From positions 1 through 28,606 of IMG/VR virus record IMGVR_UViG_3300027784_000023: DNA of 28,606 nucleotides. One strand, written 5' to 3'. The stretch comes from a virus. The position numbers and the translations under genes were made by a program. Shown here piece after piece: positions 4,800 through 22,873 of this stretch. The notes beneath the pieces are model-generated. The model was not told the DNA's origin. It ran no database searches and worked only from the letters and a program-made list of their open reading frames with translations. Numbering within the stretch: the stretch's first letter is position 1; every line of letters starts with the position of its first letter.

Positions 4800-4843
4800 G
4801 GGAAGTTAGGCGGTCTGAAAACCAGACCGCCTTTCCACCTCCT
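4799..4843 (-). promoter_or_regulatory. Structured ribosome binding site: SD and start codon separated by a 10-bp hairpin
   Basis: Reading leftward, AGGAGGTG (4843-4836) is an eight-base match to the 16S anti-SD and overlaps the stop codon of the SSB-like gene. It is followed by a perfect hairpin, AGGCGGTCTG - GTTTT - CAGACCGCCT (4832-4808), then eight bases and the ATG at 4799. In linear sequence 36 bases separate SD and ATG, too far for normal initiation. If the 25-base hairpin is looped out the distance becomes about 11 bases. The hairpin has no T-tract after it, so it is not an intrinsic terminator. Structured SD-to-start spacers of this kind are known from T4 genes such as 25 and 38. Confidence 0.7.
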
Positions 4844-5381
4844 ACCACGGAAACTCATTGTCTTTTTTACTTTCAGAAGGGGAGCTGTTTGCTGCGGGAG
4901 GAGCATCAGTAACCTGCTCGATACGAGCAACACCGATACCCGAGGAAGTTCTATCATTTTTAGTTACAACTGCTATACACTTAGCTCCTTCAACTTTCCT
5001 TTCTTCCCCATTGACAGTAGCTCCTACTATCTTCATTCTTCCGTTATCATCTTTCTCCCCAAAGCTAAAGGCAAACCGTAAATCACCGTCTTCTCCTCTA
5101 TCTCCGTCTTGAATAACATTCAAGTTTCTCATTAGACGGAATAGAATTGCCTTACTTCTCTCGTCTCCCGGCTTGATAGCGTGGAAGTGTCGTATGTTTT
5201 CTCCGGTAAATTTCTTGTTTGGACACTTAGTAATTTCCATATCCATATCCAAAACGAAATTACCAGTCTCCTCCTTCTTCCTCATCCACACCTCTGATAC
5301 CTTCACTTCATACCTGCCGGGGTCAATCACCGTATACCCCTCGTCAGAAACATTCGAAAAATCAAATTCAAATTCTTTCAT
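4842..5381 (-). CDS. DUF669-family single-stranded-DNA-binding-like protein
   Basis: A 179-residue protein with the DUF669 pattern: FDFSNVSDEGYTVIDPGRYEVKV at the N-terminus, then FVLDMDMEITKCPNKKFTGENIRHFH and a glycine-rich stretch. DUF669 members are phage recombination-cassette proteins thought to act as ssDNA-binding proteins. Supporting this, the low-complexity C-terminus (PPAANSSPSESKKDNEFPW) ends in an acidic-hydrophobic tip like the DDIPF tail of bacterial SSB, which recruits partner proteins. It lies between the Sak4-type ATPase and the primase-helicase, the usual company of a phage SSB. The start follows AGAAAGGAGAGTATTAAC. The DNA-binding function is inferred from family and context. 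Confidence 0.8.
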   Translation of the reverse strand: MKEFEFDFSNVSDEGYTVIDPGRYEVKVSEVWMRKKEETGNFVLDMDMEITKCPNKKFTGENIRHFHAIKPGDERSKAILFRLMRNLNVIQDGDRGEDGDLRFAFSFGEKDDNGRMKIVGATVNGEERKVEGAKCIAVVTKNDRTSSGIGVARIEQVTDAPPAANSSPSESKKDNEFPW

Positions 5382-5408: not shown

Positions 5409-6170
5409 TTAGCTATTGCTCAAATCAATTAAGTAGTCAGACAAGTTAGGTGCTTCTCTGTAAGCGTCATCAAATATCCCCGGTCTGTCTTTTGCAAGGA
5501 TACCTCTTACCTCAGAGAACAGCATACTCCTTGTCTTGTCAGGATTACCGTCATCGTCTTCCCCACCGTTTGGTGCTATATAAGATATAGTTGAGAACAA
5601 GGCAGGAAAACTTTGGTTCATTTTCTCCGACCCGAACATTGGACGGATGTTGAAGGGTGCGTCCTCAGATTCTTTCACCCTCTCGTCAAGCGTAGTTAAT
5701 ATTACATGAACCCTCCTTTCTTGTGGTTCTATCTGAGTTAAGTTTACTATCCTTCTGAGCAAGTCCTTATACCTGTTCGTTATCTTCTTGTATGCTTGGA
5801 TAGGAAGATTGTCAGGGTCTTTAGCCCCGTGGTATTCCACAAAGTATCTTCCCATTTCCTCTGTAAACAAGTCATAGATAAAAGAAACACCGTCAAGTAT
5901 CAGAGTCGATACTTTACCTGCATAATGCCCTTGTTCGAATCTCTCCAACACATCAAAAATATCTCTTGTTTCCTTTACCAACTTTCCGGGAATAGAAAAT
6001 GGTATAGCCTTATGTCCTGTTGGGTCAGGCGATACAATATAAGGTTTAGGAGCTGTAGCTGCTCTATAAGTCTTACCTGCACCTGACCTTCCGTAAATAA
6101 CCATGTCTACCCCGAGACCGTCCTCAATAGTTCCCGAACCTAACATCTGGTCGAATAATTCTTCAGTCAT
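5409..6170 (-). CDS. Sak4-like RecA-fold ATPase (single-strand annealing/recombination protein)
   Basis: A 253-residue P-loop NTPase of the AAA_24/Sak4 type: VIYGRSGAGKT (Walker A, 24-34), VSPDPTGHKA (46-55), STLILDGVS (Walker B, D93). Later comes VHVILTTLDERVKE, and then a C-terminal region with acidic GGEDDDGNPDKT. Sak4 proteins are small relatives of RecA core domains that promote strand annealing or exchange together with a phage SSB; the SSB-like gene is the next one downstream, 27 bases away. The ATG at 6170 overlaps the preceding stop (TAATG), with GGAGGGTAAATA as ribosome binding site. The family call is firm for the ATPase core; the annealing role is inferred from context. Confidence 0.85.
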   Translation of the reverse strand: MTEELFDQMLGSGTIEDGLGVDMVIYGRSGAGKTYRAATAPKPYIVSPDPTGHKAIPFSIPGKLVKETRDIFDVLERFEQGHYAGKVSTLILDGVSFIYDLFTEEMGRYFVEYHGAKDPDNLPIQAYKKITNRYKDLLRRIVNLTQIEPQERRVHVILTTLDERVKESEDAPFNIRPMFGSEKMNQSFPALFSTISYIAPNGGEDDDGNPDKTRSMLFSEVRGILAKDRPGIFDDAYREAPNLSDYLIDLSNS

Positions 6171-6733
6171 TATTTACCCTCCTTTGTAATAATTTCTAAA
6201 AATTGTGGCAACTGTTCTAACCACTCTATAAAAGTTTCCCATTCTTCTAACCTGTGGGTTTTTCTCTGGAAATAGATAGTCTTCAACTGTAGATAGTTAG
6301 TAACTATGTTCTTCTTCAACATTAACCCCATAGGAACATTAGACATTACTGCGTCGTAACTTACTTTCCCGTCGTTGTAATCAGCTATAACTTCTTGAAG
6401 TAAGTCAAGTATATCGTCTCTTACTAACTCGCTTGACTGCTCGACCAAGGACATTTCTGTAATCTTGTGCATCTTACTTTGACTGCTAACAATATCGAAG
6501 AAGCTGTATCGCATCATCTGTAGCCACCAATACTGCGGTGCAGTAATATCTGTTTGAACTACTATCCCCTTCAGACAACAATCATGTCCAGACCCTACAG
6601 GGGCAGAACCGAGAGTCTTAACTCTGTTCCAAGATTTACTTTTAGTAGCCGAGCTGTGTGGTGTCATCTTAGGATACCCCGAAGCTCTTAAAGTTTCCTC
6701 TACCCCATAAACCTGAGTGTTCTCAATAATCAT
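6170..6733 (-). CDS. Conserved phage early protein with possible ThyX-like core
   Basis: A 187-residue protein of a type common in Firmicutes phage recombination cassettes, usually annotated as hypothetical. It begins MIIENTQVYGVEETLRASGYP. A central segment (about residues 48-92) reads GH, then LQMMRYSFFDIVSSQSKMH. This lines up loosely with the ThyX (flavin-dependent thymidylate synthase) signature, where a conserved H is followed by Q-x-x-R-H-R-x-x-S and S-x-R-Y. The match is partial: the RHR triplet reads RYS, so FAD/dUMP catalysis should not be assumed. It is coupled to the Sak4-like gene. Proximity to a uracil-DNA glycosylase fused to the polymerase makes a role in the dUMP/dTMP balance tempting but unproven. 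Confidence 0.6.
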   Translation of the reverse strand: MIIENTQVYGVEETLRASGYPKMTPHSSATKSKSWNRVKTLGSAPVGSGHDCCLKGIVVQTDITAPQYWWLQMMRYSFFDIVSSQSKMHKITEMSLVEQSSELVRDDILDLLQEVIADYNDGKVSYDAVMSNVPMGLMLKKNIVTNYLQLKTIYFQRKTHRLEEWETFIEWLEQLPQFLEIITKEGK

Positions 6734-6754
6734 TTTACTTCTTACTTCCTCCTT

Positions 6755-7711
6755 TTAACTTGAAGATTCTTCTTCCAAGACCTCAATAATTGTCTTCTCT
6801 CTGTCTTTAAAATTGCTCTCCAATAGGAATACCCAATCCTCTCCTTTGTTGAGGTTCTCACACAAGTTCCTAAAAGGACAACCCCATGAGCAAAAGCCCA
6901 TCATTTGCGGGTTGTAAAGCGGTTGTCTTTCCTTATTGGACACCTCCTTCATTTGTCTTATTACCTGACTGATATAGTCCTCTAAGATGTCCAGTTCTTT
7001 TAGAGTTCTTAATACATAATGTCTTCCAAAGATAGGATTTTTAACTCTTGAGCTTGGAGCTTGTTTACGAGCCAGATTATAGATAGCTGCTCGGGCATGT
7101 CCTTCGCTGCCTATCCTCTTGCCTAATATATACAACTGAATACCCATCTGTAAATCCAAAGGCAAGTTACCGGGGTCTCCTACATTAGTGCTTTTGCTAA
7201 ACGCCTTGTGTTCAAGCACCAGATATTCCTGCCCGTCAAACACTACTCCGTCCAGCTTGGCTGCCAGATAAGTATTGTTGCCGAAGGGGACTAACATTCT
7301 TTCTTCCACAGAGGTTACGTTCAGAGGAGCTTGTTGTCTGTCCCACTCTACATAGTGAGCCAACATCTTGTAACCTAAGTCCTGTTCTTCCTGTAGCTCC
7401 TTACTAATATCAGGGTCATACATTCCATCGCCTATATTCTTGTGGAGTTCTTCTTTTTCTTCTTCTACTCCTTCAAGAAAACCGTTCCAAGCCTCCTCAA
7501 AAGTTTTGTTGCCTTCGTAGTATCTTTCGAGGGCTTTATGCCAGCAGATACCAAACCGTAGCTTGTTGTTTCTAACTAAAGGCTCTTTGTTCATACCGTT
7601 GTGGGAGGCAAAAAACCAATACCTCTCACAGTTCAAAAACTGTTGAAGTTCCGTATGCCTAACTATAAAAGCATCCTCAGGAACTTCATAACCAAAAACA
7701 TCTTTTATCAT
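6755..7711 (-). CDS. Cas4/RecB-like PD-(D/E)XK nuclease with Fe-S cysteines
   Basis: A 318-residue exonuclease of the PF12705/Cas4-like group. Visible motifs: C28 near the N-terminus (FLNCERYW), H58 (GICWHKALE), the nuclease core D154 with E167-x-K169 (LVLEHKAF), the QxxxY-type motif near Q192/Y194, and a C-terminal Cys cluster C274, C278, C284 (FCSWGCPFRNLCE). C28 plus this cluster would form the 4Fe-4S site typical of AddB/Cas4 enzymes. It probably resects DNA ends to feed the Sak4/SSB recombination pair. Two ATGs are possible; the one at 7717 sits only one base after AGGAG, so the second at 7711, seven bases after it, is preferred. The ORF overlaps or abuts the helicase stop. Confidence 0.9.
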   Translation of the reverse strand: MIKDVFGYEVPEDAFIVRHTELQQFLNCERYWFFASHNGMNKEPLVRNNKLRFGICWHKALERYYEGNKTFEEAWNGFLEGVEEEKEELHKNIGDGMYDPDISKELQEEQDLGYKMLAHYVEWDRQQAPLNVTSVEERMLVPFGNNTYLAAKLDGVVFDGQEYLVLEHKAFSKSTNVGDPGNLPLDLQMGIQLYILGKRIGSEGHARAAIYNLARKQAPSSRVKNPIFGRHYVLRTLKELDILEDYISQVIRQMKEVSNKERQPLYNPQMMGFCSWGCPFRNLCENLNKGEDWVFLLESNFKDREKTIIEVLEEESSS

Positions 7712-7713
7712 CT

Positions 7714-9435
7714 TCATTCTCCTTTCCTGTTTACCATTCTCCTAACTGTCTCAGCCTGTCCTGTCGTGGTGTTAAAAGACCTTTCCTTTAGCCTACATAC
7801 TGACCTTATATCATCTTCTATAGTTCCGGGGTGATATATTCTAATGATGTTAGGGCTTTCTTTTATTTCTCCTCTATGTATCCTGTCTTCTGCTTGTATG
7901 TTGTTGTAAGGAACCCAATCAACGTCTGTAAATATAGCAGTCGAGGCTTTCTGTAAGTTCATACCTTCTCCGCCGCTCTGAGCTGTGGCTATAACTACTT
8001 GAACCTCCCCACTATTAAGAGATTGCTCGACTTCATCCCGTTGCTGAGAAGTTTGACCTCCAAGAATACATCCATACGATATTCCTTTGTCCTCAACTAA
8101 CTCTTTTATAGCTTCGGCAAACTCTCTGAAGTAGGTAAAAATTATAACCTGATTGCCTTCAAAGCAAACGTCATCAAGTATCTCGTCAAGAAAATCTAAT
8201 TTAGCAGAGGCATCATTAGAACCGAGTAGTCTTGAACTTAAACATATCTGTCTGAGTCTTATCATCTGCGACACCACATTCTCTGCTCTTATTATCTCCT
8301 CTATTTCCTTACCGTCGTCTAACTCTTTCTCAATCACAAGCATTAACTCTTTTTCCATACTGTCATAGTCTTTCTTCTGCTGTTCCGATAAAGGTATCGG
8401 ATACTCAGTAATAATTTTATCTGGTAGCGAAGGCATCACATCTTTCTTAGTTACTCTGAACATATAAGTTGCTAACATGTGACTAAATTCGTTCTCGTCT
8501 TTCGGCCCTATTATCTCAATACCACCGAAAGGATGTTCAACATAGTCTAAGTAGAAGTTTACAAAGTTCCAGTATCCTGAGAATCTAACAGGGTCGCACA
8601 TATTGAGCAAGCTGTATATATCGTCATAACTATTGCGAAACACAGTTCCCGTGCATAACCACAGAAACCTTGCAGAAGGAACTATGGACGATATTTCCTG
8701 TGTCCTTCTTGCCTTTCGGTTCTTTAACCTATGAGCCTCGTCTGATATAACTGCATCTATATCGAATTGCTTTAGTGTGTCTGAGTGTATCCTTGCTTGT
8801 TCATAATTCATAACAAGTATAACTTCCCTGTTCTTAAACAATAACTTTTCTATCTCCTCCCCTCTGAAATCTTTAGTGCCTGATATTACACCGTTCTCAG
8901 CTTTGTCCTTACCCTTCTTAGGCTCTACTACATAAATATCTTCTCTACCTGCCCACTCCTTAATGTGGTTTACCCAGCTCCACTTGACAGCGTTAGGGCA
9001 TATAACAATTACCTTGGCTAAGGTTAAGTAGTCAATAGCTGAAGCAGCTATAGGAGTTTTACCCGTTCCCATTTCGTGCCCGAGTATTCCCTTGCCTACT
9101 TCATTCAAGAATCTTACACTCGCTCTTTGGAAATCCCACAGGGAGCTATCGTCAAGAGGTGCATCATTTTCTGTGGCTCTTAATACTCTACGCTGTTTGT
9201 CAGCTAAGTCGTCTAAATATTTTTTCAAGTTATCGCCTATCTCTACGTCAGGTATCTGTTCCTTAATATGCTTGACAATTAGAGGTTCTACAGGGTAAGT
9301 CCATGCTTTATCTTTCTTGCTGAACCTTCCTGTTCCTCTGCCTGCCTCCTGAGCAAGCCACTTGTAATCATAGGGGCAGTAAAACACAAGTCTCTTAGGT
9401 CTATGGTCTTTTGTAAGCGATAAGTCTAACCGCAT
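7714..9435 (-). CDS. SNF2-family DNA helicase/translocase
   Basis: A 573-residue superfamily 2 ATPase. The first 65 residues (RLVFYCPYDYKWLAQEAG, then KDKAWTYPVE) resemble the short N-terminal module that precedes SNF2 cores in SMARCAL1/HARP-like proteins. The motor follows: LWDFQRASVRFL (Q motif region), Walker A GHEMGTGKT (119-127), DEAH box (232-235), and C-terminal motifs V-VI (QVVIATAQSGGEGMNLQ, AEDRIHRGEI). Phage members are thought to remodel replication forks or anneal strands. It is four bases downstream of the RuvC-like gene with GTGGAGGAATAACT as ribosome binding site. Length and motif order are complete. Confidence 0.92.
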   Translation of the reverse strand: MRLDLSLTKDHRPKRLVFYCPYDYKWLAQEAGRGTGRFSKKDKAWTYPVEPLIVKHIKEQIPDVEIGDNLKKYLDDLADKQRRVLRATENDAPLDDSSLWDFQRASVRFLNEVGKGILGHEMGTGKTPIAASAIDYLTLAKVIVICPNAVKWSWVNHIKEWAGREDIYVVEPKKGKDKAENGVISGTKDFRGEEIEKLLFKNREVILVMNYEQARIHSDTLKQFDIDAVISDEAHRLKNRKARRTQEISSIVPSARFLWLCTGTVFRNSYDDIYSLLNMCDPVRFSGYWNFVNFYLDYVEHPFGGIEIIGPKDENEFSHMLATYMFRVTKKDVMPSLPDKIITEYPIPLSEQQKKDYDSMEKELMLVIEKELDDGKEIEEIIRAENVVSQMIRLRQICLSSRLLGSNDASAKLDFLDEILDDVCFEGNQVIIFTYFREFAEAIKELVEDKGISYGCILGGQTSQQRDEVEQSLNSGEVQVVIATAQSGGEGMNLQKASTAIFTDVDWVPYNNIQAEDRIHRGEIKESPNIIRIYHPGTIEDDIRSVCRLKERSFNTTTGQAETVRRMVNRKGE

Positions 9436-9437
9436 AG

Positions 9438-9881
9438 TTATTCCTCCACTACTTCGTAGTCTTCTGCTCCTCCAATGTGAGACAATATGAGCCTATAAGC
9501 GTCCCTAACATGGTCGCCTTTTAACTGTGTCGGTATCTCTCCGACTGCTCTTTTGTTTATACTTGGCTGTATTTCTTTTAATGAGCCTCCTGTCTGTAGT
9601 ATAGCAAGCGAGGCTCTGTCGTAGGATAGTATCTGGTTATACTTGTCATTAGACAAGTGTCCAGACTTGACTACTCCCTCAATCAGACCTATAATGGGAG
9701 TTCTTCTTGGTGCAAACTTGGAGAACCACGACCTAAATTCTCCGTAATGTTCAAGAGCATTTTCTTTGTCATCCATTGTTACCTCCCCGTGGGATATAAC
9801 ATAAATAGTCTTACTTGCTGGCTTATAGGCAGCTATTACTACACCTGATGTTGTTCCTGGGTCTACTGATATTATCCTCAT
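9438..9881 (-). CDS. RuvC-like Holliday junction resolvase / RNase H-fold nuclease
   Basis: A 147-residue protein with the RuvC-type RNase H fold: an acidic residue on the first strand (ISVDPGTTSG, D7), a second one in IIGLIEG (E68), and a C-terminal helix with DHVRDAYRL (H124/D127) matching the HxxDA motif that completes the metal site. It is likely to cleave four-way or branched DNA made during replication and packaging. The position between recombination genes (Sak4, Cas4-like, SNF2) agrees. The ATG follows GAGAGGAGGAAGTAA, and the stop lies two bases before the helicase start. Confidence 0.85.
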   Translation of the reverse strand: MRIISVDPGTTSGVVIAAYKPASKTIYVISHGEVTMDDKENALEHYGEFRSWFSKFAPRRTPIIGLIEGVVKSGHLSNDKYNQILSYDRASLAILQTGGSLKEIQPSINKRAVGEIPTQLKGDHVRDAYRLILSHIGGAEDYEVVEE

Positions 9882-10300: not shown

Positions 10301-10329
10301 ATATTACTACAAATATATTCCCATGTCAA
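10301..10329 (-). promoter_or_regulatory. Sigma-A-type promoter of the leftward replication operon
   Basis: On the minus strand TTGACA (10329-10324, perfect -35) is followed after exactly 17 bases by TAATAT (10306-10301, 4 of 6 matches to the -10). Transcription would start near 10294, giving a leader of about 33 bases before the RHH gene. It lies in the only gap between the two large leftward operons. Confidence 0.75.
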
Positions 10330-10335
10330 GGGGGT

Positions 10336-10572
10336 TTAATGATTTTCTTCTCCCTCGACAAAACTTATTAAATGTTCTACGAAAGTGTTCGCTAACATTA
10401 GCAGAGCTAAGCAAACCACAGTAGGCTTATGAGGGTCGTCCTCAGCGTCTACTGCTAAAGTATCTAACAACTTCTTGGATAATCGTTTTGCTTCTTCTAC
10501 GTCCTCCTCATTATCGGCAGCCTTAGCTGCGAGACCCCACGCTTCTACTAATTTAGTGTTCTCCATCTTCAT
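10336..10572 (-). CDS. Hypothetical small protein, last gene of the amidoligase operon
   Basis: 78 residues (MKMENTKLVEAWGLAAKAADNEEDVEEAKRL and so on), mostly helical and acidic, with a C-terminal hydrophobic stretch (TVVCLALLMLANTFVEHLISFVEG) that could be one membrane-associated or coiled helix. No family recognised. Several in-frame starts exist. The ATG at 10572 has AAGGGAG seven bases upstream, whereas the ATG at 10578 is too close to it and the farther starts lie deep inside the preceding peptidase gene, so 10572 is chosen. It overlaps the metallopeptidase stop, suggesting coupled translation. Confidence 0.6.
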   Translation of the reverse strand: MKMENTKLVEAWGLAAKAADNEEDVEEAKRLSKKLLDTLAVDAEDDPHKPTVVCLALLMLANTFVEHLISFVEGEENH

Positions 10573-10867
10573 TTTCATTCTCCCTTCTGTAAAGTTTAGT
10601 AATTTTATCTCGAAGTCTGTCCGACTCCTGAGAATGTTCTCTATTATGTTGCGTAGAATACACAGTAACATGAGCAAGTTCGTGAGCCAACGAAGATATT
10701 AATTCTTCTATACTCTTGTTCATGTTCAAGTTTAATGCTACGTCTGCTTTTTCTTCGTTGAATTCAATAGCTGCTCTCAATCCCTCCAATTTAGTTGACC
10801 CGTAAATATTTACTTCAATGCCTGTTACCTGCTGTGATATTTGCTTGAGTCTTTTCCACTTTATCAT
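10553..10867 (-). CDS. Small zinc metallopeptidase-like protein (HExxH)
   Basis: 104 residues with a clear gluzincin-type signature, SSLAHELAHV (H62, E63, H66), on a predicted helix. It is followed by HNREHSQESDRL, which offers His and Glu/Asp candidates for the third zinc ligand. Size and helix arrangement recall the minimal SprT/ImmA-like metallopeptidase core rather than a secreted protease; there is no signal peptide. It sits directly downstream of the glutamine amidotransferase and amidoligase genes, so a substrate-processing role in that pathway is possible. The start follows ATAGGAGGCGATAACTA. Confidence 0.75.
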   Translation of the reverse strand: MIKWKRLKQISQQVTGIEVNIYGSTKLEGLRAAIEFNEEKADVALNLNMNKSIEELISSLAHELAHVTVYSTQHNREHSQESDRLRDKITKLYRRENENEDGEH

Positions 10868-10897
10868 TAGTTATCGCCTCCTATCTGTAATACTTTC

Positions 10898-11749
10898 TTA
10901 AAAACTTTCAATAACTTCGTAAACACACCTCCCAAATTGAAAACAATACTGAGGGTTTACACAATCTATACAATCATCTATACCGTTATCACCTCCTTTT
11001 CCGTTGTGGGTGTCTTTTCCCCTTATCTTCTTACGAGTCCAAGTTCCTGCTGTGCCGTCCCATGCCCAATATTCGTCATCTTTTAGTCCTTGGCTGGAAG
11101 GTTTAGCTGTCCGGGGACGAGTATCTCTACGCCCCCAACCATAGTTTACACCGCTTCGATAATAAGTAGTTGTTTTAACGTCTTCGTAGTCTCTATTCGA
11201 GAAGTAAATACCATCTTGCTCAGTAAATGCCCCCATGTTATATACTGTTATATACCCTTCCGAAGACATATGCACAAACTTACTTGTGGTATCTAACAAA
11301 GGCAACACATTCTTACCCAAGAATCTTACTGCCAGAGCTAACATACGAGTATCCGACCACTCACCATCAGGCACTTCAATACCTTTCTGCAAGCACACCT
11401 CCAACAATGTGCTTTTCCATTGAGCTGTTACTCCGTTTTGAAATATTAGAGGTTTCTTACCCTCGAAGGTGGTATCAGTAGAGGCAACGTCATCCACAAG
11501 GTAAGGGTGAGTTAGCTCAGGTATCTCACTTCCGCTTGTGCCTGTTCGGAAATGTGCTACATGCGGAAAAGTTTTGACGTAAGTATTGTAATACTTCCAA
11601 GCCTCCTCTACTTCCATAAATCCTTTACGATACTTATTCACTGTACCGTTGTTCCATGCTACACCGAACCCGTCGCTATGCGACTTGAAACAATTCTTAA
11701 ACTCCTTTTCAGTCATCTTCCTCTCTTTACAAATAGCAACGATACACAT
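10898..11749 (-). CDS. Class II glutamine amidotransferase-like Ntn hydrolase
   Basis: 283 residues. Starting at the ATG at 11749 puts Cys at position 2 (MCIVAICKERK), the catalytic nucleophile of class II amidotransferases after Met removal. The ribosome binding site agrees: AAAGGAG is seven bases from this ATG but only one base from the alternative at 11755. Further family features are SHSDGFGVAW (24-32), AHFRTGTSG (65-73) and IFQNG (102-106), the equivalents of the substrate-binding R-T-x-G and N-G oxyanion elements. The last 90 residues are a hydrophilic region ending in four cysteines (CIDCVNPQYCFQFGRCV), perhaps a metal knuckle. It would release ammonia from glutamine. The amidoligase encoded just upstream is the obvious acceptor partner. 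Confidence 0.85.
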   Translation of the reverse strand: MCIVAICKERKMTEKEFKNCFKSHSDGFGVAWNNGTVNKYRKGFMEVEEAWKYYNTYVKTFPHVAHFRTGTSGSEIPELTHPYLVDDVASTDTTFEGKKPLIFQNGVTAQWKSTLLEVCLQKGIEVPDGEWSDTRMLALAVRFLGKNVLPLLDTTSKFVHMSSEGYITVYNMGAFTEQDGIYFSNRDYEDVKTTTYYRSGVNYGWGRRDTRPRTAKPSSQGLKDDEYWAWDGTAGTWTRKKIRGKDTHNGKGGDNGIDDCIDCVNPQYCFQFGRCVYEVIESF

Positions 11750-11816
11750 AATCATTCTCCTTTCATTTTAGTTTTATTTAACTTGTGTAAGCAAACCGCC
11801 TTAACTGGCTTCTTGT

Positions 11817-14117
11817 TTATTCGTAATGCATAGCTGAAACATTTCCATTGGTGTTAGCGTTATGTGTTTCGTTTTCTCTACCGTTCAAGTATCTTAACTG
11901 ACTGCCTGTTACAAAGTAATTAGGCCCATCATCGGATAGACTAATAACGTAAGGACAATCAAAAGCCGTTCTACGATTGACATCCTCAAGTCGTGCTATA
12001 TGAGGTCTAACTAAACCTAAGTTAGTTGGCCTTATACCGTTTTCCTCACTTACAACTACCGCACCATCTATTAAAACTACTTCGTCTTCTCTTACAAGCC
12101 CAACATCTGCGTCTTGGTATTCCCGAGTGTTTATCTCAGGCAAGCGTTCTCCTAACGCTGCAAGAGATGTGTTCTGATTATTTATACCGTTATAACTATA
12201 AACTACAGTAACTCCGGCACTACGAGAAGACTCTACCATTTGCGAAGGTTCAGCGTGGTGTATAAGCTCGTTATAATCTTGCTTTACTTTATCAGGCTCT
12301 TTCTTAAACTCCTTTAAGAATTTCTTAACAGCCTCTACAACTTCTTTGTTTTTATCCTCGAATACATCTTCATCTGTTCTGAATGTAAACGGCAGCCCTA
12401 TTGCTATACGATAACCTCCGAATCTGTTACTATACACCACTGCTTTAGGCAAGTTATATTCTTGACTCCACCCATCCACAGGGATAGAGCTTACCAAGCC
12501 ACGCTCTTGCTTTAGCCCGTAAAACTCTATCGTTGGGCACTCATTATCCTCCTTCTTCTTATATAACTCACGCAACATCTTCAATACTTGAGTCTCAAAG
12601 TCTCTTTTTATGATGTTTGCCCAATCATCTGAGAATCTTACCTTACCTAACAAGCGAGGAGGTTCCTTAACTTTAGGAGCCCAAAATGCTACCAAGCTTT
12701 CCCCGAAGTCTGTATCCCACTCTTTTATGAAGTTCCAGAAGTAATCGTATTCTTCATCGCTTAGCCCTGCTATCCTCTTGTAATCCTCCCTTCGAGGAGT
12801 AGGTGAATTATACTCAATCGTTCTTCGGTTTATAAACGATTCGGTTAAATTCTTTGCTATCTTCATGCTGATATAAGCCATTCGAGGCTTTGCAAATATT
12901 GTAGCCGAAGGAGTTCTATATTCAAAACCCCAAAGCTTACTTCGAGCATCAGAAAGAAATCCATAACTCCTATCGAGTCTACCGTGCCCTGTTAGCTCGT
13001 TGGTATGCCTACCTAAGAAGTCATCTAACATCTTCTTTAAATTCTCAGGAGGATGCCACGACTGCCCTACTCCTATATGTATGTGTCCTCCAAGTGGATA
13101 CTTGTCTCCTCGCACCGATAATATAAACTCGCTGTGTTTACTCTGAAACTCTCCCATGATGTTGCGAATATCAGCCACAACACTACGAGGTTTATTACTT
13201 GCTGTGGGCCTAATTTCTGCTTGGTCTCCTTCTCCGTCTACACCGAGCCTGTCCGTCCTATCTGATATAATACTATTTGCCGGAACAGGTTCAGATTCAT
13301 CTTTACGGCACACTTCATACTCAGGGTCAGCACCTACCGTTACTCTTATAGGCTTCCTAACAACGTCATCTTCTCTAATGTCTTTGAGCAAGTCTTCATC
13401 GTCGCCGTGAAACGATAACAGCTTTACTTCAGTCCAGTCAAACACAGGTTCTTCTAATGGTTCTAACCCTATTATCTCCATCAGTTGTTGCCATTTGTAA
13501 CCTAACCACAGCTCGGCAGCCCCTGATCCTGTGGAAGGCAGATATAGTATCTGCTTGTTGGTAAAGAAAGCTCCTAAAACCATAGGCTCTCCCTCGTTGG
13601 GATACGTTTTTATCATTCTTACTTCTTCTTCCTCCTCTGCCTTCCCCTTCGGAACACGCAGTGCACCATGAGTTAGGTTAGATATGCCTTGTAGTAGAGT
13701 TCTTTCTTTAAGAGACCCTATTAAGGGCTGTATGACAATGCTGCTAGATAGTTTACTGCTTCTCACTCTTTCTTCTTCGCCAGGGACTACTATATCTGCC
13801 CCCTTATAAACATGAACTCCTGAAAATACTGATGTTTTGGGAGACTGCATGAAAAGAGTCCTGCTGCAAGTATCTCTATTCAATGAATAGCAGCGTCCTT
13901 CATTAAATAATAAGCGGGAGAAGTATTTCTCTACTCCCGCATACTTCAAGCAAGCCAACAAATTCTCAGGTGCTGACCCAAACAGTCCCGTTGTTTCGTC
14001 ATGGAACGAGACGGAGAATTGTCCAGCATTTCTCGTTTCTGAAGCACACATCTTACTTCTATACCCCTCATTCGTCAGGTTCAGGTTTCTGTTTAGCCCG
14101 TTAATTCTGGTTATCAT
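11817..14117 (-). CDS. Phage amidoligase (COOH-NH2 ligase type 2, PF14395-like)
   Basis: 766 residues. The central domain carries the glutamine-synthetase/glutamate-cysteine-ligase-fold motifs of phage COOH-NH2 ligases: VGADPEYE (261-268), GVDGEGDQAEIRP (292-304), GGHIHIG (343-349) and FEYRTPSA (398-405). These provide the acidic and His metal/ATP ligands for ATP-dependent amide-bond formation. About 250 residues precede this core and about 350 follow it; neither part is recognised. They may position a peptide or protein substrate. The upstream gene overlaps the start; of the ATGs at 14123 and 14117 the second is better spaced from GGAGGAGG. It is co-transcribed with the class II amidotransferase, the partner predicted for such ligases in the comparative genomics of Iyer and colleagues. 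The substrate is unknown. Confidence 0.85.
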   Translation of the reverse strand: MITRINGLNRNLNLTNEGYRSKMCASETRNAGQFSVSFHDETTGLFGSAPENLLACLKYAGVEKYFSRLLFNEGRCYSLNRDTCSRTLFMQSPKTSVFSGVHVYKGADIVVPGEEERVRSSKLSSSIVIQPLIGSLKERTLLQGISNLTHGALRVPKGKAEEEEEVRMIKTYPNEGEPMVLGAFFTNKQILYLPSTGSGAAELWLGYKWQQLMEIIGLEPLEEPVFDWTEVKLLSFHGDDEDLLKDIREDDVVRKPIRVTVGADPEYEVCRKDESEPVPANSIISDRTDRLGVDGEGDQAEIRPTASNKPRSVVADIRNIMGEFQSKHSEFILSVRGDKYPLGGHIHIGVGQSWHPPENLKKMLDDFLGRHTNELTGHGRLDRSYGFLSDARSKLWGFEYRTPSATIFAKPRMAYISMKIAKNLTESFINRRTIEYNSPTPRREDYKRIAGLSDEEYDYFWNFIKEWDTDFGESLVAFWAPKVKEPPRLLGKVRFSDDWANIIKRDFETQVLKMLRELYKKKEDNECPTIEFYGLKQERGLVSSIPVDGWSQEYNLPKAVVYSNRFGGYRIAIGLPFTFRTDEDVFEDKNKEVVEAVKKFLKEFKKEPDKVKQDYNELIHHAEPSQMVESSRSAGVTVVYSYNGINNQNTSLAALGERLPEINTREYQDADVGLVREDEVVLIDGAVVVSEENGIRPTNLGLVRPHIARLEDVNRRTAFDCPYVISLSDDGPNYFVTGSQLRYLNGRENETHNANTNGNVSAMHYE

Positions 14118-14421
14118 AACCATCCTCCTCCCCTTTATTTAAAAATTGCTTACTCATTCTGAAATCGCTGATGTTTTTCACTCCTTCTAATATAGCTTCG
14201 GCAGCTTTCTCCCTTTCAAATCCTGCATCTTCCATTACATCTAACACTGCGTCCATTGATGTTATAGCTAACGCTCCTACTTCCTCAGCCCCGGCATCAT
14301 TACCGGAAATCAATATTGTGCTGTAACATTCTTTCTTCTTATCTTTGTAAGATACGCATACCGAGCTTGCCAAACACTCGTGAACTTTACCATCTTCGGT
14401 TAATATTGTTATATGATTCAT
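14101..14421 (-). CDS. Hypothetical protein upstream of the amidoligase
   Basis: 106 residues from the ATG at 14421 (MNHITILTEDGKVHECLASS), chosen because GGAAAGGAGGAG ends four bases before it. The first half is predicted beta-rich with three cysteines (HECLASSVCVSYKDKKKEC); the second half is helical (SMDAVLDVMEDAGFEREKAAEAILEG), and the tail is polar. No family recognised. It starts one base after the preceding stop and overlaps the amidoligase by 17 bases, so tight translational coupling to that enzyme is likely. An accessory or substrate role cannot be excluded. Confidence 0.7.
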   Translation of the reverse strand: MNHITILTEDGKVHECLASSVCVSYKDKKKECYSTILISGNDAGAEEVGALAITSMDAVLDVMEDAGFEREKAAEAILEGVKNISDFRMSKQFLNKGEEDGYDNQN

Positions 14422-14422
14422 T

Positions 14423-14818
14423 TTACTCCTCCTTTCCGCAATCGTCATTCTTGCACAGACTATCTAACATACCTTTTCCATCTATGTTGTTGTAGTTTTC
14501 TTTCGTCATTGTTGCTATAAACTGCCCACAGATGGGGCAGTAAGCATCGACTAAGCCTTCTCCTTCTCCTTCTCCTTCTCCGCTTCCGCTTCTGTCTTTA
14601 TTCTTGCTAATCTTGTATCCTCGTGCCTCTGATATTTCTTCTTCGTCGATATCGAGGTAGTCGCAAAGAGCCGACACCACAAGCCACGACTTGCTACATT
14701 CTTCTTCTACGGCTCTATGGCTCAGCTCTTTATCCACAAGCTCCGGAAGCCACAAGCTCCTCTGAACAGCCCAATGACCTCCCGTCTTTCTTCTTGTGCC
14801 TTTTTTCTTCTTAGTCAT
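14423..14818 (-). CDS. RHH-like protein joined by a Gly-Glu repeat linker to a zinc ribbon
   Basis: 131 residues in three parts. Residues 1-70 are basic at the start (TKKKKGTRRKTGG), then show a strand-helix-helix pattern (QRSLWLPELVDKEL, SHRAVEEECSKSWLVVSAL) like ribbon-helix-helix DNA-binding proteins. Residues 76-88 are a flexible acidic linker, SGSGEGEGEGEG, encoded by a GGAGAA repeat. Residues 92-131 contain CPICG, then C and NDDCG, a possible zinc-binding ribbon. It might regulate this operon or bind nucleic acid. The ATG at 14818 overlaps the preceding gene by eight bases and follows AAGGAGGTGTAATGG. Confidence 0.65.
   Translation of the reverse strand: MTKKKKGTRRKTGGHWAVQRSLWLPELVDKELSHRAVEEECSKSWLVVSALCDYLDIDEEEISEARGYKISKNKDRSGSGEGEGEGEGLVDAYCPICGQFIATMTKENYNNIDGKGMLDSLCKNDDCGKEE
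14563..14583. repeat. Short tandem repeat encoding the Gly-Glu linker
   Basis: On the plus strand CCTTCT occurs about four times in tandem; on the coding strand this is GGAGAA repeated and reads Gly-Glu pairs between the RHH-like and zinc-ribbon parts of the protein at 14423-14818. Slippage here would change linker length in steps of two residues without breaking frame. Confidence 0.7.
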
Positions 14819-15134
14819 CCATTACACCTCCTTCATCTGTTAATAATCTCCTAATGTCGTTGTAATTGTATTGCCCTTCCCAAACTACATGCTCCTCTGC
14901 ATATCCATCATCGCCGTCAGTTGTTACAAACCTTGATAAAATCCTCACACTTACCGTATCTACTTCAAAGTTTTTTGCTATATCTTCTACCACGCCATCT
15001 ATATCGTCGATAGTTGTCTCGCTTTTGAATACTCCCCGACTCCTAAGAGGCACACACTCCTTAATCTTTCTCAAATGAGCCGTGCCTGTTATGACGTATC
15101 CCTCAAAAACTACCTTCTTCATTTTCAAACTCAT
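14811..15134 (-). CDS. Hypothetical protein, first gene of the amidoligase operon
   Basis: 107 residues (MSLKMKKVVFEGYVITGTAHLRKI and so on), predicted alpha/beta, acidic toward the C-terminus. No recognised domain. The start at 15134 is supported by GGGAGGTG five bases upstream; an internal ATG at 15122 lacks its own site. The extended -10 promoter at 15158-15186 lies about 20 bases upstream of the ribosome binding site, so this gene opens the leftward unit that includes the amidoligase, amidotransferase and metallopeptidase. Confidence 0.7.
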   Translation of the reverse strand: MSLKMKKVVFEGYVITGTAHLRKIKECVPLRSRGVFKSETTIDDIDGVVEDIAKNFEVDTVSVRILSRFVTTDGDDGYAEEHVVWEGQYNYNDIRRLLTDEGGVMDD

Positions 15135-15157: not shown

Positions 15158-15186
15158 ATTATACCACACTACTAAAGTTTTGGTAA
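15158..15186 (-). promoter_or_regulatory. Extended -10 promoter of the amidoligase operon
   Basis: Minus-strand TTACCA (15186-15181), a 17-base spacer ending in TGG, and a perfect TATAAT (15163-15158). The TGn element makes this an extended -10 promoter. It is oriented toward the gene starting at 15134 and lies next to the first TTTAGGGAA repeat cluster, which could hold its operator. Confidence 0.75.
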
Positions 15187-15203
15187 AACCCCTTCCCAAA
15201 ACA

Positions 15204-15269
15204 CTTCCCTAAACCGAAAATTCCCCGCCACAGAAGGATTTTTTCGGTTCAAGAAACTATTTAGGGAAG
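15204..15269. repeat. Interrupted inverted repeat carrying two TTTAGGGAAG boxes (cluster A)
   Basis: Left arm CTTCCCTAAA-CCGAAAA at 15204-15220; right arm TTTTCGG at 15241-15247 and TTTAGGGAAG at 15260-15269. The outer boxes are exact inverted copies of each other and the inner CCGAAAA/TTTTCGG pair is also exact, with a 12-base insert in the right arm. A third box (15306-15315) lies just beyond. It is about 20 bases upstream of the -35 of the amidoligase-operon promoter. Confidence 0.75.
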
Positions 15270-15291
15270 ATCTACTAAAGTTGTCCTTAAA

Positions 15292-15332
15292 GATAGGGGG
15301 GAGTTCTTCCCTAAATAACTCCTCCCCCTATC
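15292..15332. repeat. Hairpin presenting a TTTAGGGAAG box in its loop
   Basis: GATAGGGGGGAGTT (15292-15305) pairs with AACTCCTCCCCCTATC (15317-15332) apart from a two-base bulge. The 11-base loop is CTTCCCTAAAT, a complete copy of the repeat box. No T-tract follows on either strand, so terminator function is unlikely. Confidence 0.7.
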
Positions 15333-15446
15333 CCGCCCCTCACCTTCCGGTGCTACCTATGTAGCCGGTGCTCCTTCGCTCCCTCGGGGTCGCTACGGTC
15401 GCACCTTTACCTCAAGGTTCGGGCTTTTTGTTTTTTGTTGTTGTTT

Positions 15447-19872: not shown

Positions 19873-20132
19873 TGTTGGATGCTTTTGCTTTGGGTTTTAT
19901 TTGCGGTAGTATTATCGTGGGGATAATTTGGCTGTCGTTTGCAAGGCAGGAAGTTGTCGTCTATGTGAACGACTCGGAGAAAGGGAAAGTCGTATCAGGG
20001 GGTAGTAAGCCTTCTAAGAAGGTGAGTAAGCCTGACCCGGAGAAGGCTTTGAGGTATAGAGACCCCAGCTATATCGCTCAGAAAGAGGAGCAAATACTTA
20101 AAAGGCAGAAAACGCCACCGGAGGTTAGATAA
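19872..20132 (+). CDS. Small single-pass membrane protein in the terminase cassette
   Basis: 86 residues. One hydrophobic helix at 4-24 (AFALGFICGSIIVGIIWLSF), then a basic, Pro/Lys-rich cytoplasmic-type tail (KPSKKVSKPDPEKALRYRDP). No family recognised. Start is GTG at 19872, overlapping the terS stop by one base; TTG at 19875 is equally compatible with the GGTGGGGAG site. Its stop overlaps the terL ATG (TAATG), so the three genes are translationally coupled. A holin-like or host-membrane role is possible but not shown. Confidence 0.6.
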   Translation: MLDAFALGFICGSIIVGIIWLSFARQEVVVYVNDSEKGKVVSGGSKPSKKVSKPDPEKALRYRDPSYIAQKEEQILKRQKTPPEVR

Positions 20133-22873
20133 TGAGAGCATTTGAGGATATGCCTAAACAACAGGAAGAAGCTCTCAAAGATGCTACAAGGCAGAAGTGT
20201 TTAGATGACTTGCAGTATCTTGCCAAGCACGTATTGAATTATAACAGAGTAACAGACCATATACATAGGCAGATGGCCCAAGACATTGATACGCCACGAT
20301 ATAAATTCCGACTCCTTCTGTGGCCTCGGGGACACTTCAAATCAACTCTTGGAACAGAGGCAAGGTCTATTCAAAAGCTGTTACGCAACCCCAACGAGAG
20401 GATTCTCATAACAAACGCTAAATTAGAAAACTCAAGAAAGTTTGTCCGAACTATAGTGCATCACTTTAACGCTGGCCCTAAGTTTAGGTGGGCTTGGCGT
20501 GATTGGTGGCTCGACCAATACGCTACTTCGTATCATCGAGCTGCTATGGGTAAAAAACTTGATTGGGTTACAAGAGATACACAGGACGAATTTACTGTGT
20601 TGAGGCCGTATGAGGGCAGGGAAGCCAGCTTAACTACTGGTGCTACCGATGCTTCTTTGGTTTCTCAGCACTACTGTTTGTTTGCAGGAAGCAAAGTTCT
20701 TACTTCTAAGGGACTTGTGCCTGTGGAAGAAATCAGACGAGGGCACAGAGTTCTGACTAAAGAAGGCGTTTTTAAATCAGTTGAAGCCGTGGGCAGGCAG
20801 AAAACACATGGCGTAAAGGTTAAAGTAAAGCCGTCCTACACGTCTGAAACAACGGAACTCACTTATAATCATCGGGTGTTGGTTCATAGAGATGAAGGAC
20901 TCAGGTGGGTGGATGCCGGATGTTTAACTGAGGAAGATAAGTTAGTTATTCCCAAGATGCGAGGTAAAAGCGGTTCACCAAGTAAAACAAATGATAGACT
21001 AAACCGCTTGTATAGAACCCCCGATATATGGAGGCTGCTTGGGTATTGGGTTGGCGATGGTTGTAGAACCCCAGACGGAGCTCAAATCAGGATCGTACAG
21101 GGAACCCACGAGCCCAAGAATGTGGAAGATATTGTAGATATAGTGGAAAATCACTTGGGTTGTAACGTAACTGTAAGAGAAACTGACTCTTCGACCTATA
21201 TGATTTGCTTCTCAGACGAGGACTTCAAAGAACTGACTAAAAGTTTCGGGGACTACGCTTACAACAAAAAACTACCTGTGTGGGTTTTAAGTAACTATAA
21301 TAGCAAACAGATAGAGTTTCTTAAAGGGTATTTCAGGGCAGATGGTTGTCTGTCAGGAAATAGTGTTAGTTTCTCAAGTACTTCTCTTGATTTACTAACA
21401 GGAATACAGTTGTTGCTTGCTCAGTTTGATATACCTGCTGGAATATGCAAGGGAACTAACGGAGGCGAAATGCAGATTTTAGATTACGCCAGTAATACGA
21501 TAGAAGACTGGGCATTACGTTCTACGCACCCTATGCTAAAGTTGTTGTTAGAGGAAGAACCTGGAAAGTTTCCTACTAAACCGTTTAAGTCTTTCTTTAC
21601 AGACGAACATTGGGTTACAGGTATAGATAAAATAGAAAAAGAAGAGTTTGAAAACGAAATAGTCTATGACATCCAGGTGGCTGGAGATGAAAGTTTCTAT
21701 TGCCCAGGGATGATTGTTCATAACAGCACCATTATAGCTGACGACTTGGTAAACCGTGACTACGTTAGAACGCAGGAAATGGTGGAAAAGTCGATACTTT
21801 ATTTTAAGGACTTGCTTGACTTGTTAGACCCTGACGGAGAGTTAGAGATAATTGGAACGCGTTGGTCCCACATGGACTTATATCAATGGATTATTGAAGA
21901 ATTCGGTCATAAAGCGAGTATGAGAGTTCCTGAGCATTTTGCTGAGAGACAGTCTATGAAAGAAACTATTCAGGCTTCTCGGGAAACTCCTGAGGAAGAA
22001 AAAGACTGGATGGTATCTATATATCCTTGTTATAACGAGCAGGGCAAACCGATATTTCCCGAGGAGTTTACGTCGCAGGTGTTGGCTGACTTGGAGAAAG
22101 CTAAAGGGCCTTACGAGTTTGGTTCTCAGTATTTGTTAGACCCGACTCCTGAGGAACACCAGAAGTTCAAGGCCGAATGGATTAACAGGCTGGATATAAT
22201 GCCTGACCCCTCGGAGCTTACAGGGTGCATAACGGTAGACCCGGCTATATCTAAAGAGGACGAGGCTTGCCGGATGGCTCTTACAGTATGCGGTTATGAC
22301 AGGGAAAACAGGATGTATTTCTTGGACGGGCTTAATGAACGTATAAGTGAGGAACAATTCGCAGAAGCGGTATTTCAGTATGTAGTTTACTGGAAGAACA
22401 AATTTAGACATTTTCTCCCTGTGGGGTTTGAGTCAATCGGATTTCAACAGGTTTACGTCTACAACATGCGTAGAATGATGATGGAGAGAAATGAGTTTTT
22501 TGCTATAGAGGAAATAAAAAGAAGGAATCAGAGTAAAGATGAAAGAATATTGCGACTGGTTCCAAGAATTAGGAACGAGTTTTACGCTCCTAAGAAGCTG
22601 ATGAAAACGCCTTGGGAGGGTAAAGGAGAGCCTTACGACTTGATAAACCGGCTGATTTGGGAGCTAACTAAGTTTCCTTATGCTGGTTACAAGGACTTGG
22701 CTGACGCTTTAGCAGACCAGTTGGATATAGTCAAGGCTAATAAGATTCCTGTTCGTAAGGGCGGGGAATCTGAAGATACAAAGGTAAGAGAGTTTACCCA
22801 TCCTTCTATTGTAGAGGACAAAAAGAAGTCAAGAAGGAGTAGAGTTTCTAAAGATTTTGATGCGGTGAGGTGA
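20132..22873 (+). CDS. terL: Terminase large subunit interrupted by an intein
   Basis: 913 residues including a 350-residue intein (182-531); the spliced protein would be 563 residues, normal for TerL. The N-terminal extein has the ATPase Walker A-like PRGHFKS (65-71). The C-terminal extein starts with Ser and carries Walker B IIADD (533-538 with D537, D538), then the RNase H-fold nuclease: TVDPAISKEDEA with its first Asp, FESIGFQQ, and DLADALADQ near the end. It drives genome packaging and cuts DNA into headful or unit lengths. Insertion falls next to the ATPase active site, so unspliced protein should be inactive. Coupled by one-base overlap to the membrane-protein gene; portal starts five bases after the stop. 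Confidence 0.95.
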   Translation: MRAFEDMPKQQEEALKDATRQKCLDDLQYLAKHVLNYNRVTDHIHRQMAQDIDTPRYKFRLLLWPRGHFKSTLGTEARSIQKLLRNPNERILITNAKLENSRKFVRTIVHHFNAGPKFRWAWRDWWLDQYATSYHRAAMGKKLDWVTRDTQDEFTVLRPYEGREASLTTGATDASLVSQHYCLFAGSKVLTSKGLVPVEEIRRGHRVLTKEGVFKSVEAVGRQKTHGVKVKVKPSYTSETTELTYNHRVLVHRDEGLRWVDAGCLTEEDKLVIPKMRGKSGSPSKTNDRLNRLYRTPDIWRLLGYWVGDGCRTPDGAQIRIVQGTHEPKNVEDIVDIVENHLGCNVTVRETDSSTYMICFSDEDFKELTKSFGDYAYNKKLPVWVLSNYNSKQIEFLKGYFRADGCLSGNSVSFSSTSLDLLTGIQLLLAQFDIPAGICKGTNGGEMQILDYASNTIEDWALRSTHPMLKLLLEEEPGKFPTKPFKSFFTDEHWVTGIDKIEKEEFENEIVYDIQVAGDESFYCPGMIVHNSTIIADDLVNRDYVRTQEMVEKSILYFKDLLDLLDPDGELEIIGTRWSHMDLYQWIIEEFGHKASMRVPEHFAERQSMKETIQASRETPEEEKDWMVSIYPCYNEQGKPIFPEEFTSQVLADLEKAKGPYEFGSQYLLDPTPEEHQKFKAEWINRLDIMPDPSELTGCITVDPAISKEDEACRMALTVCGYDRENRMYFLDGLNERISEEQFAEAVFQYVVYWKNKFRHFLPVGFESIGFQQVYVYNMRRMMMERNEFFAIEEIKRRNQSKDERILRLVPRIRNEFYAPKKLMKTPWEGKGEPYDLINRLIWELTKFPYAGYKDLADALADQLDIVKANKIPVRKGGESEDTKVREFTHPSIVEDKKKSRRSRVSKDFDAVR
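20675..21724 (+). mobile_element. Intein with LAGLIDADG (DOD) homing endonuclease inside terL
   Basis: In-frame insertion of 350 codons, from Cys182 (CLFAGSKVLTSKGLVPVEEI, block A) to HN (530-531), followed by Ser532. Block B TxxH is T244-x-x-H247. The endonuclease motifs are LLGYWVGDG (302-310) and FLKGYFRADG (396-405), both with the catalytic Asp, so the element may still be mobile. Block F reads YDIQVAGDESFYCPG with Glu520 where many inteins have His. Splice residues Cys+1, His-Asn and Ser are all present, so splicing is expected. Confidence 0.93.

Follow-up and report, generated by a model that had tools for sequence, protein, structure and literature searches.

A large phage PF14395 ligase, a class II amidotransferase and a small zinc peptidase recur as a putative three-gene module

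The DNA analysed here (the window) is the whole 28,606-nucleotide stretch of IMG/VR virus record IMGVR_UViG_3300027784_000023, a 28.6 kb fragment of a bacterial virus, and it carries a leftward gene cluster in which a large COOH-NH2 ligase of family PF14395, a class II glutamine amidotransferase (GAT-II) and a small HExxH zinc peptidase follow one another. The order large ligase, GAT-II, small HExxH peptidase recurs in nine other IMG/VR phage contigs and, since this trio is found in otherwise unrelated viruses, it is probably one working system; we are confident that the three genes form a single functional module. The pairing of a phage amidoligase with a class II amidotransferase is itself already known from clusters of the phiEco32/LUZ24 type. 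What is new, as judged from sequence comparison, is that the large-ligase class appears to carry a portable three-gene module with a peptidase slot.

The ligase is assigned to PF14395 by Pfam (5.1e-15, 55.8 bits against a cut-off of 25; 6.1e-18 in a separate scan), and a PF14395 scan of control genomes was negative. As the initial annotation had recognised, this 766-residue protein carries all core motifs of a COOH-NH2 ligase: the family signatures GxDPE, E(I/L)RP, GGHxH and EYR are present as GADPE (residues 264-268), EIRP (303-306), GGHIHIG (345-351) and FEYR (400-403), they are conserved across 16-17 relatives, and they are intact, a few substitutions aside, in every ligase of the trio loci. 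The loss of motif residues among relatives, named beforehand as an argument against catalysis, was therefore not observed. The catalytic core (residues ~260-470) is modelled by AlphaFold at a per-residue confidence (pLDDT) of ~70-95, and its best PDB matches by Foldseek are YbdK/GCS2, glutamine synthetase and Dop/PafA, which places it in the glutamine synthetase/gamma-glutamylcysteine synthetase (GCS) fold. A conserved C-terminal segment occupies residues ~494-582, and the N-terminal ~250 and last ~130 residues are lineage-specific. The long N- and C-terminal parts had been taken to suggest a specific partner; in the C-terminal part, the ~494-582 segment is common to the large-ligase family, and it is thus part of the enzyme and not by itself evidence for such a partner. 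Single-sequence searches of annotated phages and viral contigs with the window ligase returned no match, and relatives of the ligase and the amidotransferase came only from alignment-based scans; scans of this kind with both proteins, run over genome contigs, found no bacterial relatives. We also note a PF14395-like protein of Paenibacillus (L010, 9548-10771, + strand) beside cotE, mutS and mutL, a neighbourhood hinting at a bacterial PF14395-like branch, perhaps a spore-linked one.

The open reading frame of the amidotransferase reaches 11755, and the Shine-Dalgarno spacing favours the ATG at 11749, from which the protein begins MCIV with a cysteine at position 2; the same spacing backs internal starts for the ligase (its second ATG) and for the small gene that begins at 14421. 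Conserved between the window protein and its phage relatives are Cys2, Arg68, Asn105, Gly106 and Asp133, the class II glutaminase residues: the N-terminal nucleophile (Ntn) cysteine, which becomes terminal once Met is removed, the arginine and aspartate that bind glutamine, and the Asn-Gly pair of the oxyanion site. Pfam alone fails here because the sequence is too diverged (12.8 bits and 0.057 for GATase_4 with the single sequence, below the cut-off of 23), but a profile of the amidotransferase and its relatives matches the glutaminase domains of GlmS (1.9e-16), PurF and EgtC, and the core of the AlphaFold model resembles PurF (Foldseek, 2.7e-6), GlmS and EgtC. Conserved residues, family profile and model thus agree with the Cys2 class II amidotransferase that had been proposed. 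Its identity to the amidotransferases of L025, L073, L074 and L078 is 37-41%; searched as a single sequence, it found no match among viral contigs and two weak matches among annotated phages.

The 104-residue HExxH protein seen in the initial annotation scores just above the cut-off of the SprT-like family PF10263 (6.6e-6, a marginal 26.4 bits against 25.6), and its L025 homologue falls below that cut-off. The zinc motif and third ligand, HExxH-x7-H, are kept in seven of seven aligned members. A PADLOC scan gave only weak matches, to this protein. In its small HExxH domain with a third histidine it resembles the SprT/WLM-type mini metallopeptidases, although it stands alone at 104 residues, has no zinc ribbon and is tied to a ligase operon.

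The loci came from a pair of alignment-based scans over viral contigs, which found 30 and 46 loci with some overlap, and were compared by gene maps with locally built profiles. GAT-II accompanies PF14395 in 25/30 records from the first scan. Two types of zincin fill the slot behind the amidotransferase: L025, L074, L075, L077, L078 and L080 carry homologues of the window peptidase, and L076, L079 and the more distant L032 carry a different one, which is barely picked up by a SprT profile made from the former. An HExxH gene lies straight after the amidotransferase in eight of the ten best ligase relatives (L073, L074, L025 and L075-L081). For these nearest relatives, the condition named beforehand for rejecting the larger unit (ligase and amidotransferase kept without the peptidase) does not hold, and the earlier grouping of the three genes is supported, although more distant relatives are without the peptidase. 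HExxH genes within two genes after GAT-II number 8/74, against 15/1162 elsewhere, and are thus about nine times more frequent by odds (Fisher p 2.7e-5, a guide only because the loci are not strictly independent lineages). When the loci, which lie on different contigs, were taken in pairs, flanking genes were shared in 5/66 and unit genes matched in 65/66; the flank matches come from the related group L073/L074/L080 or are single or weak (L074-L078 and L077-window). Distances correlate between ligase and GAT-II (r 0.53, p 0.01, n=11) and between GAT-II and the SprT-like peptidase (r 0.62, p 0.025, n=6).

Loci with an amidotransferase split into a small-ligase group (26 loci), with PF12224 in 21, ATP-grasp in 24, C26 in 14 and GGCT in 9, and a large-ligase group (27 loci), with ATP-grasp in 17 and none of the other three families in any. 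The window belongs to the large-ligase group. An ATP-grasp enzyme lies next to the L025 locus and near those of L073, L074 and L080; the window gave no ATP-grasp match, an absence that applies to this 28.6 kb fragment of the genome, and a Pfam scan of ten proteins of the region gave no match to Amidoligase_2. The phiEco32/LUZ24/Privateer-type clusters combine PF14395, PF12224, a class II amidotransferase and ATP-grasp, often with a C26 peptidase or GGCT; in UFV-P2, Alcaligenes phage QDWS535, EP335 and Proteus 3H10_20, PF14395 is joined by a second amidoligase and a class II amidotransferase, usually by ATP-grasp and sometimes by C26 or GGCT. Like these clusters, the window has a class II amidotransferase in the vicinity of its PF14395 ligase, near replication genes, but this ligase has 768 rather than ~260-310 residues, PF12224, C26, GGCT and (in this fragment) ATP-grasp are missing, and a SprT-like peptidase follows the amidotransferase.

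As for what the module does, the chances are about even that it uses ATP and glutamine to form an amide at a carboxylate of a protein, a peptide or the wall, aided by a zinc peptidase of its own. Catalytic motifs are intact in all three enzymes, which lie in one leftward cluster in a recurrent order. The ligase, with its glutamine synthetase/GCS fold, would use ATP to turn a carboxylate into an activated acyl phosphate, the glutaminase would supply nitrogen (ammonia) from glutamine, the resulting amide would sit on a protein, a peptide or a component of the wall, and the peptidase would process the same target by trimming or release, before or after ligation. We infer the formation and trimming of an amide-linked tag. 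The presence of an SprT-like peptidase in the trio favours a polypeptide substrate over free metabolites. The trio genes sit on the same side of the genome as the replication genes, and the module is therefore likely to act early in infection, altering a host or phage macromolecule.

Several observations weigh against this reading. The close relatives L073 and L081 have a ligase and GAT-II with no adjacent peptidase, and a peptidase is present in only 7/27 of the large-ligase loci counted, plus L025 and the window, so that most lack one, although the true counts lie slightly above those tabulated, since the amidotransferase of L025 was missed by the gene caller owing to an overlap and L080 was counted as small owing to fragmented ligase genes. 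Ligase and SprT distances are uncorrelated (r ~0, n=6). The ligase model is poor beyond its core, with 433/768 residues at pLDDT <50, and its whole-chain template-modelling (TM) score is low because most of the chain lacks confident modelling. Finally, GAT-II could be a gamma-glutamyl hydrolase like EgtC and not an ammonia donor.

The last point leads to a metabolic alternative. In ergothioneine synthesis, EgtA and EgtC pair a GCS-fold ligase with a class II Ntn enzyme, and by analogy the window ligase would attach a gamma-glutamyl group by an amide bond to an amino acid or a small amine, from which the class II enzyme, as a hydrolase, would remove it, in a metabolite or nitrogen-metabolism role, as an auxiliary metabolic gene. 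EgtC is among the structure and profile matches of the amidotransferase, the classic relatives carry other gamma-glutamyl enzymes (the C26 peptidase and GGCT), and a Planctomycetes phage with an amidoligase, an amidotransferase, glutathione synthase and GGCT has been proposed to aid nitrogen metabolism (PMC10945688). The window ligase is, however, of another family than EgtA, no other ergothioneine genes were recognised, C26 or GGCT occurs in 0/27 large-ligase loci, and the zinc peptidase, being SprT-like, points to a polypeptide and not a small metabolite. We regard this possibility as rather unlikely.

A self-contained phage protein-tagging system is an unlikely reading of the trio. The large ligase would tag target proteins with a small amine or a peptide, the glutaminase would feed or edit the donor, and the zincin would mature the substrate or remove the tag. 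A known parallel in concept, isopeptide formation on proteins by the Pup ligase PafA and the depupylase Dop, shares its superfamily and fold with the window ligase (Foldseek), but the window has no Pup-like protein and no sequence-level membership of that group (no such family appeared in Pfam and NCBIfam scans of the region), and it has a class II amidotransferase in place of Dop.

Two sets of small genes in other loci deserve mention beside this. In L026, four small proteins (2048-2470, 2476-2766, 2771-3085 and 5942-6202, all + strand) differ in their bodies and share an identical N-terminal FTQIIFP; a scan of the 74 kb record for the DNA pattern of this peptide found these four sites only, all inside a ligase/GAT/ATP-grasp cluster. 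They are possible ligase substrates or bearers of a shared sorting peptide and, given their position inside that cluster, would be the candidate substrates if the trio tags proteins. In L025, about ten small paralogous genes (6391-9752, + strand; MKIYRFKTEEE...EFG..WR...LGQRIP) lie near the trio and an RtcB-like gene.

In peptidoglycan amidation by MurT and GatD, a ligase and a glutamine amidotransferase carry out glutamine-dependent amidation, as might the window enzymes, but MurT is Mur-ligase-like and GatD is class I, and their folds are unrelated to those of the trio. By this analogy the ligase and glutaminase would amidate peptidoglycan or another envelope polymer, thereby blocking superinfection or tuning lysis, which we consider distinctly unlikely. 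A cell-wall change against superinfection has been proposed for phage amidoligases, including the amidoligase and amidotransferase of phiEco32 (as cited in PMC10580990). Pfam found no wall-binding, membrane or export domain in the three proteins. SprT-like enzymes, moreover, are not known to be wall hydrolases.

It is very unlikely that the trio modifies nucleic acid bases with amide-linked groups while the SprT-like enzyme acts on a DNA-bound protein. SprT/Spartan enzymes do act on DNA-protein crosslinks, and the trio genes run ahead of the replication genes in the same direction; against this, no base hydroxylase, deaminase or transglycosylase family was found among the window proteins scanned, and the related phage L004 has a collinear replication module without PF14395. 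That the three enzymes are mere chance neighbours in a mosaic genome is most improbable, since, for all the mosaicism of phage early regions and the two relatives without an adjacent peptidase, the same order in about nine genomic contexts, with two zincin types in one slot, largely refutes it.

Early and replication genes running leftward make up the left part of the window (DNA polymerase A, primase-helicase, SSB, Sak4, exonuclease and SNF2 helicase), and structural genes running rightward make up its right part (terminase, portal, scaffold, decoration and major head protein). All seven tightly packed leftward genes of the initial annotation are present at 15134-10336 (Table 1), where they precede the replication genes in the same orientation; neighbours overlap by at most 26 nt or are separated by at most 67 nt, and inspection for Shine-Dalgarno sequences found good ribosome sites. 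The extended -10 promoter described ahead of the cluster was likewise found. The second promoter-like site, at 10329-10301, may be a separate promoter for the replication genes; no terminator-like site was found between these and the seven-gene group.

Table 1. Genes and promoter-like sites of the seven-gene cluster in the window
Feature	Position	Strand	Remarks
Extended -10 promoter-like site	15158..15187	-	TGgTATAAT, -10 at 15163-15158, 10/12 matches; upstream of the seven genes
Small gene, no family assigned	14811..15134	-	107 aa; first of unit; no family matches; no counterpart in trio loci
Protein with possible small DNA-binding part, then Cys-rich CPIC...CKNDDC	14423..14818	-	131 aa; homologue in L004
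Small gene, no family assigned	14101..14421	-	106 aa; no family matches; no counterpart in trio loci
Large PF14395-type COOH-NH2 ligase	11817..14123	-	768 aa open reading frame; 766 aa from better-placed second ATG, 14117
Class II glutamine amidotransferase/glutaminase-like Ntn enzyme	10898..11749	-	283 aa; starts Met-Cys
SprT-like mini metallopeptidase	10553..10867	-	104 aa; HELAH-x7-H
Small helical protein	10336..10578	-	80 aa; last of seven; look-alikes precede same ribbon-helix-helix (RHH) gene in L012 and L013
Second promoter-like site	10301..10329	-	TTGACA-17-TAATAT; between seven-gene group and leftward replication genes

A role as substrate or carrier had been put forward for the two family-less genes at 14101-14421 and 14811-15134. 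The trio loci hold no match to any of the three small upstream genes and, because none travels with the trio, that role is rejected for the window. The middle one, at 14423-14818, has a homologue (blastp 1e-8) at 15862-16131 in L004, the relative without PF14395, where it adjoins the DNA polymerase. The gene at 10336-10578 is probably part of the replication region and not of the trio, since in L012 and L013 the same RHH gene comes after small genes that look like it, a likeness judged by eye, with no BLAST match at E<=0.05.

By its helicase, the phage is related to L004, L012, L013 and L015 (42-48% identity), most of which break off a short way upstream of the replication operon. The contigs of L012, L013 and L015 all stop ~1.3-1.6 kb upstream of the helicase, at the point where the ligase group would be expected to start; this region may be hypervariable and so break assemblies. 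Only L004 reaches it, and there, in place of the trio, it has other genes (1973-5378, + strand), for a 506 aa zinc-ribbon protein, a possible M42/M20-like peptidase (a weak match) and a 163 aa protein. A phrog_6721 protein of the window (6170-6733, - strand) is unmatched in the related phages and is 41% identical to one of L067 (17311-17901; the L025 phage), the only other close link between the window and L025 genomes. Upstream of the cluster promoter, 15180-15440 belongs to a noncoding 300 bp with inverted repeats (TTTAGGGAAG...CTTCCCTAAA) and no Rfam match, and the large terminase subunit (20132-22873, + strand) is split by an intein-like stretch at residues ~174-534.

Phage amidoligase/amidotransferase pairs have been annotated for years, and the published accounts of such clusters that we examined propose roles and demonstrate a substrate in none. 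The composition of the trio makes a polypeptide target likelier than a role in free amino-acid metabolism. With a zinc peptidase slot that is filled by two zincin types, it offers a small, expressible gene set for direct substrate tests, and the old question of the substrate thereby becomes testable.

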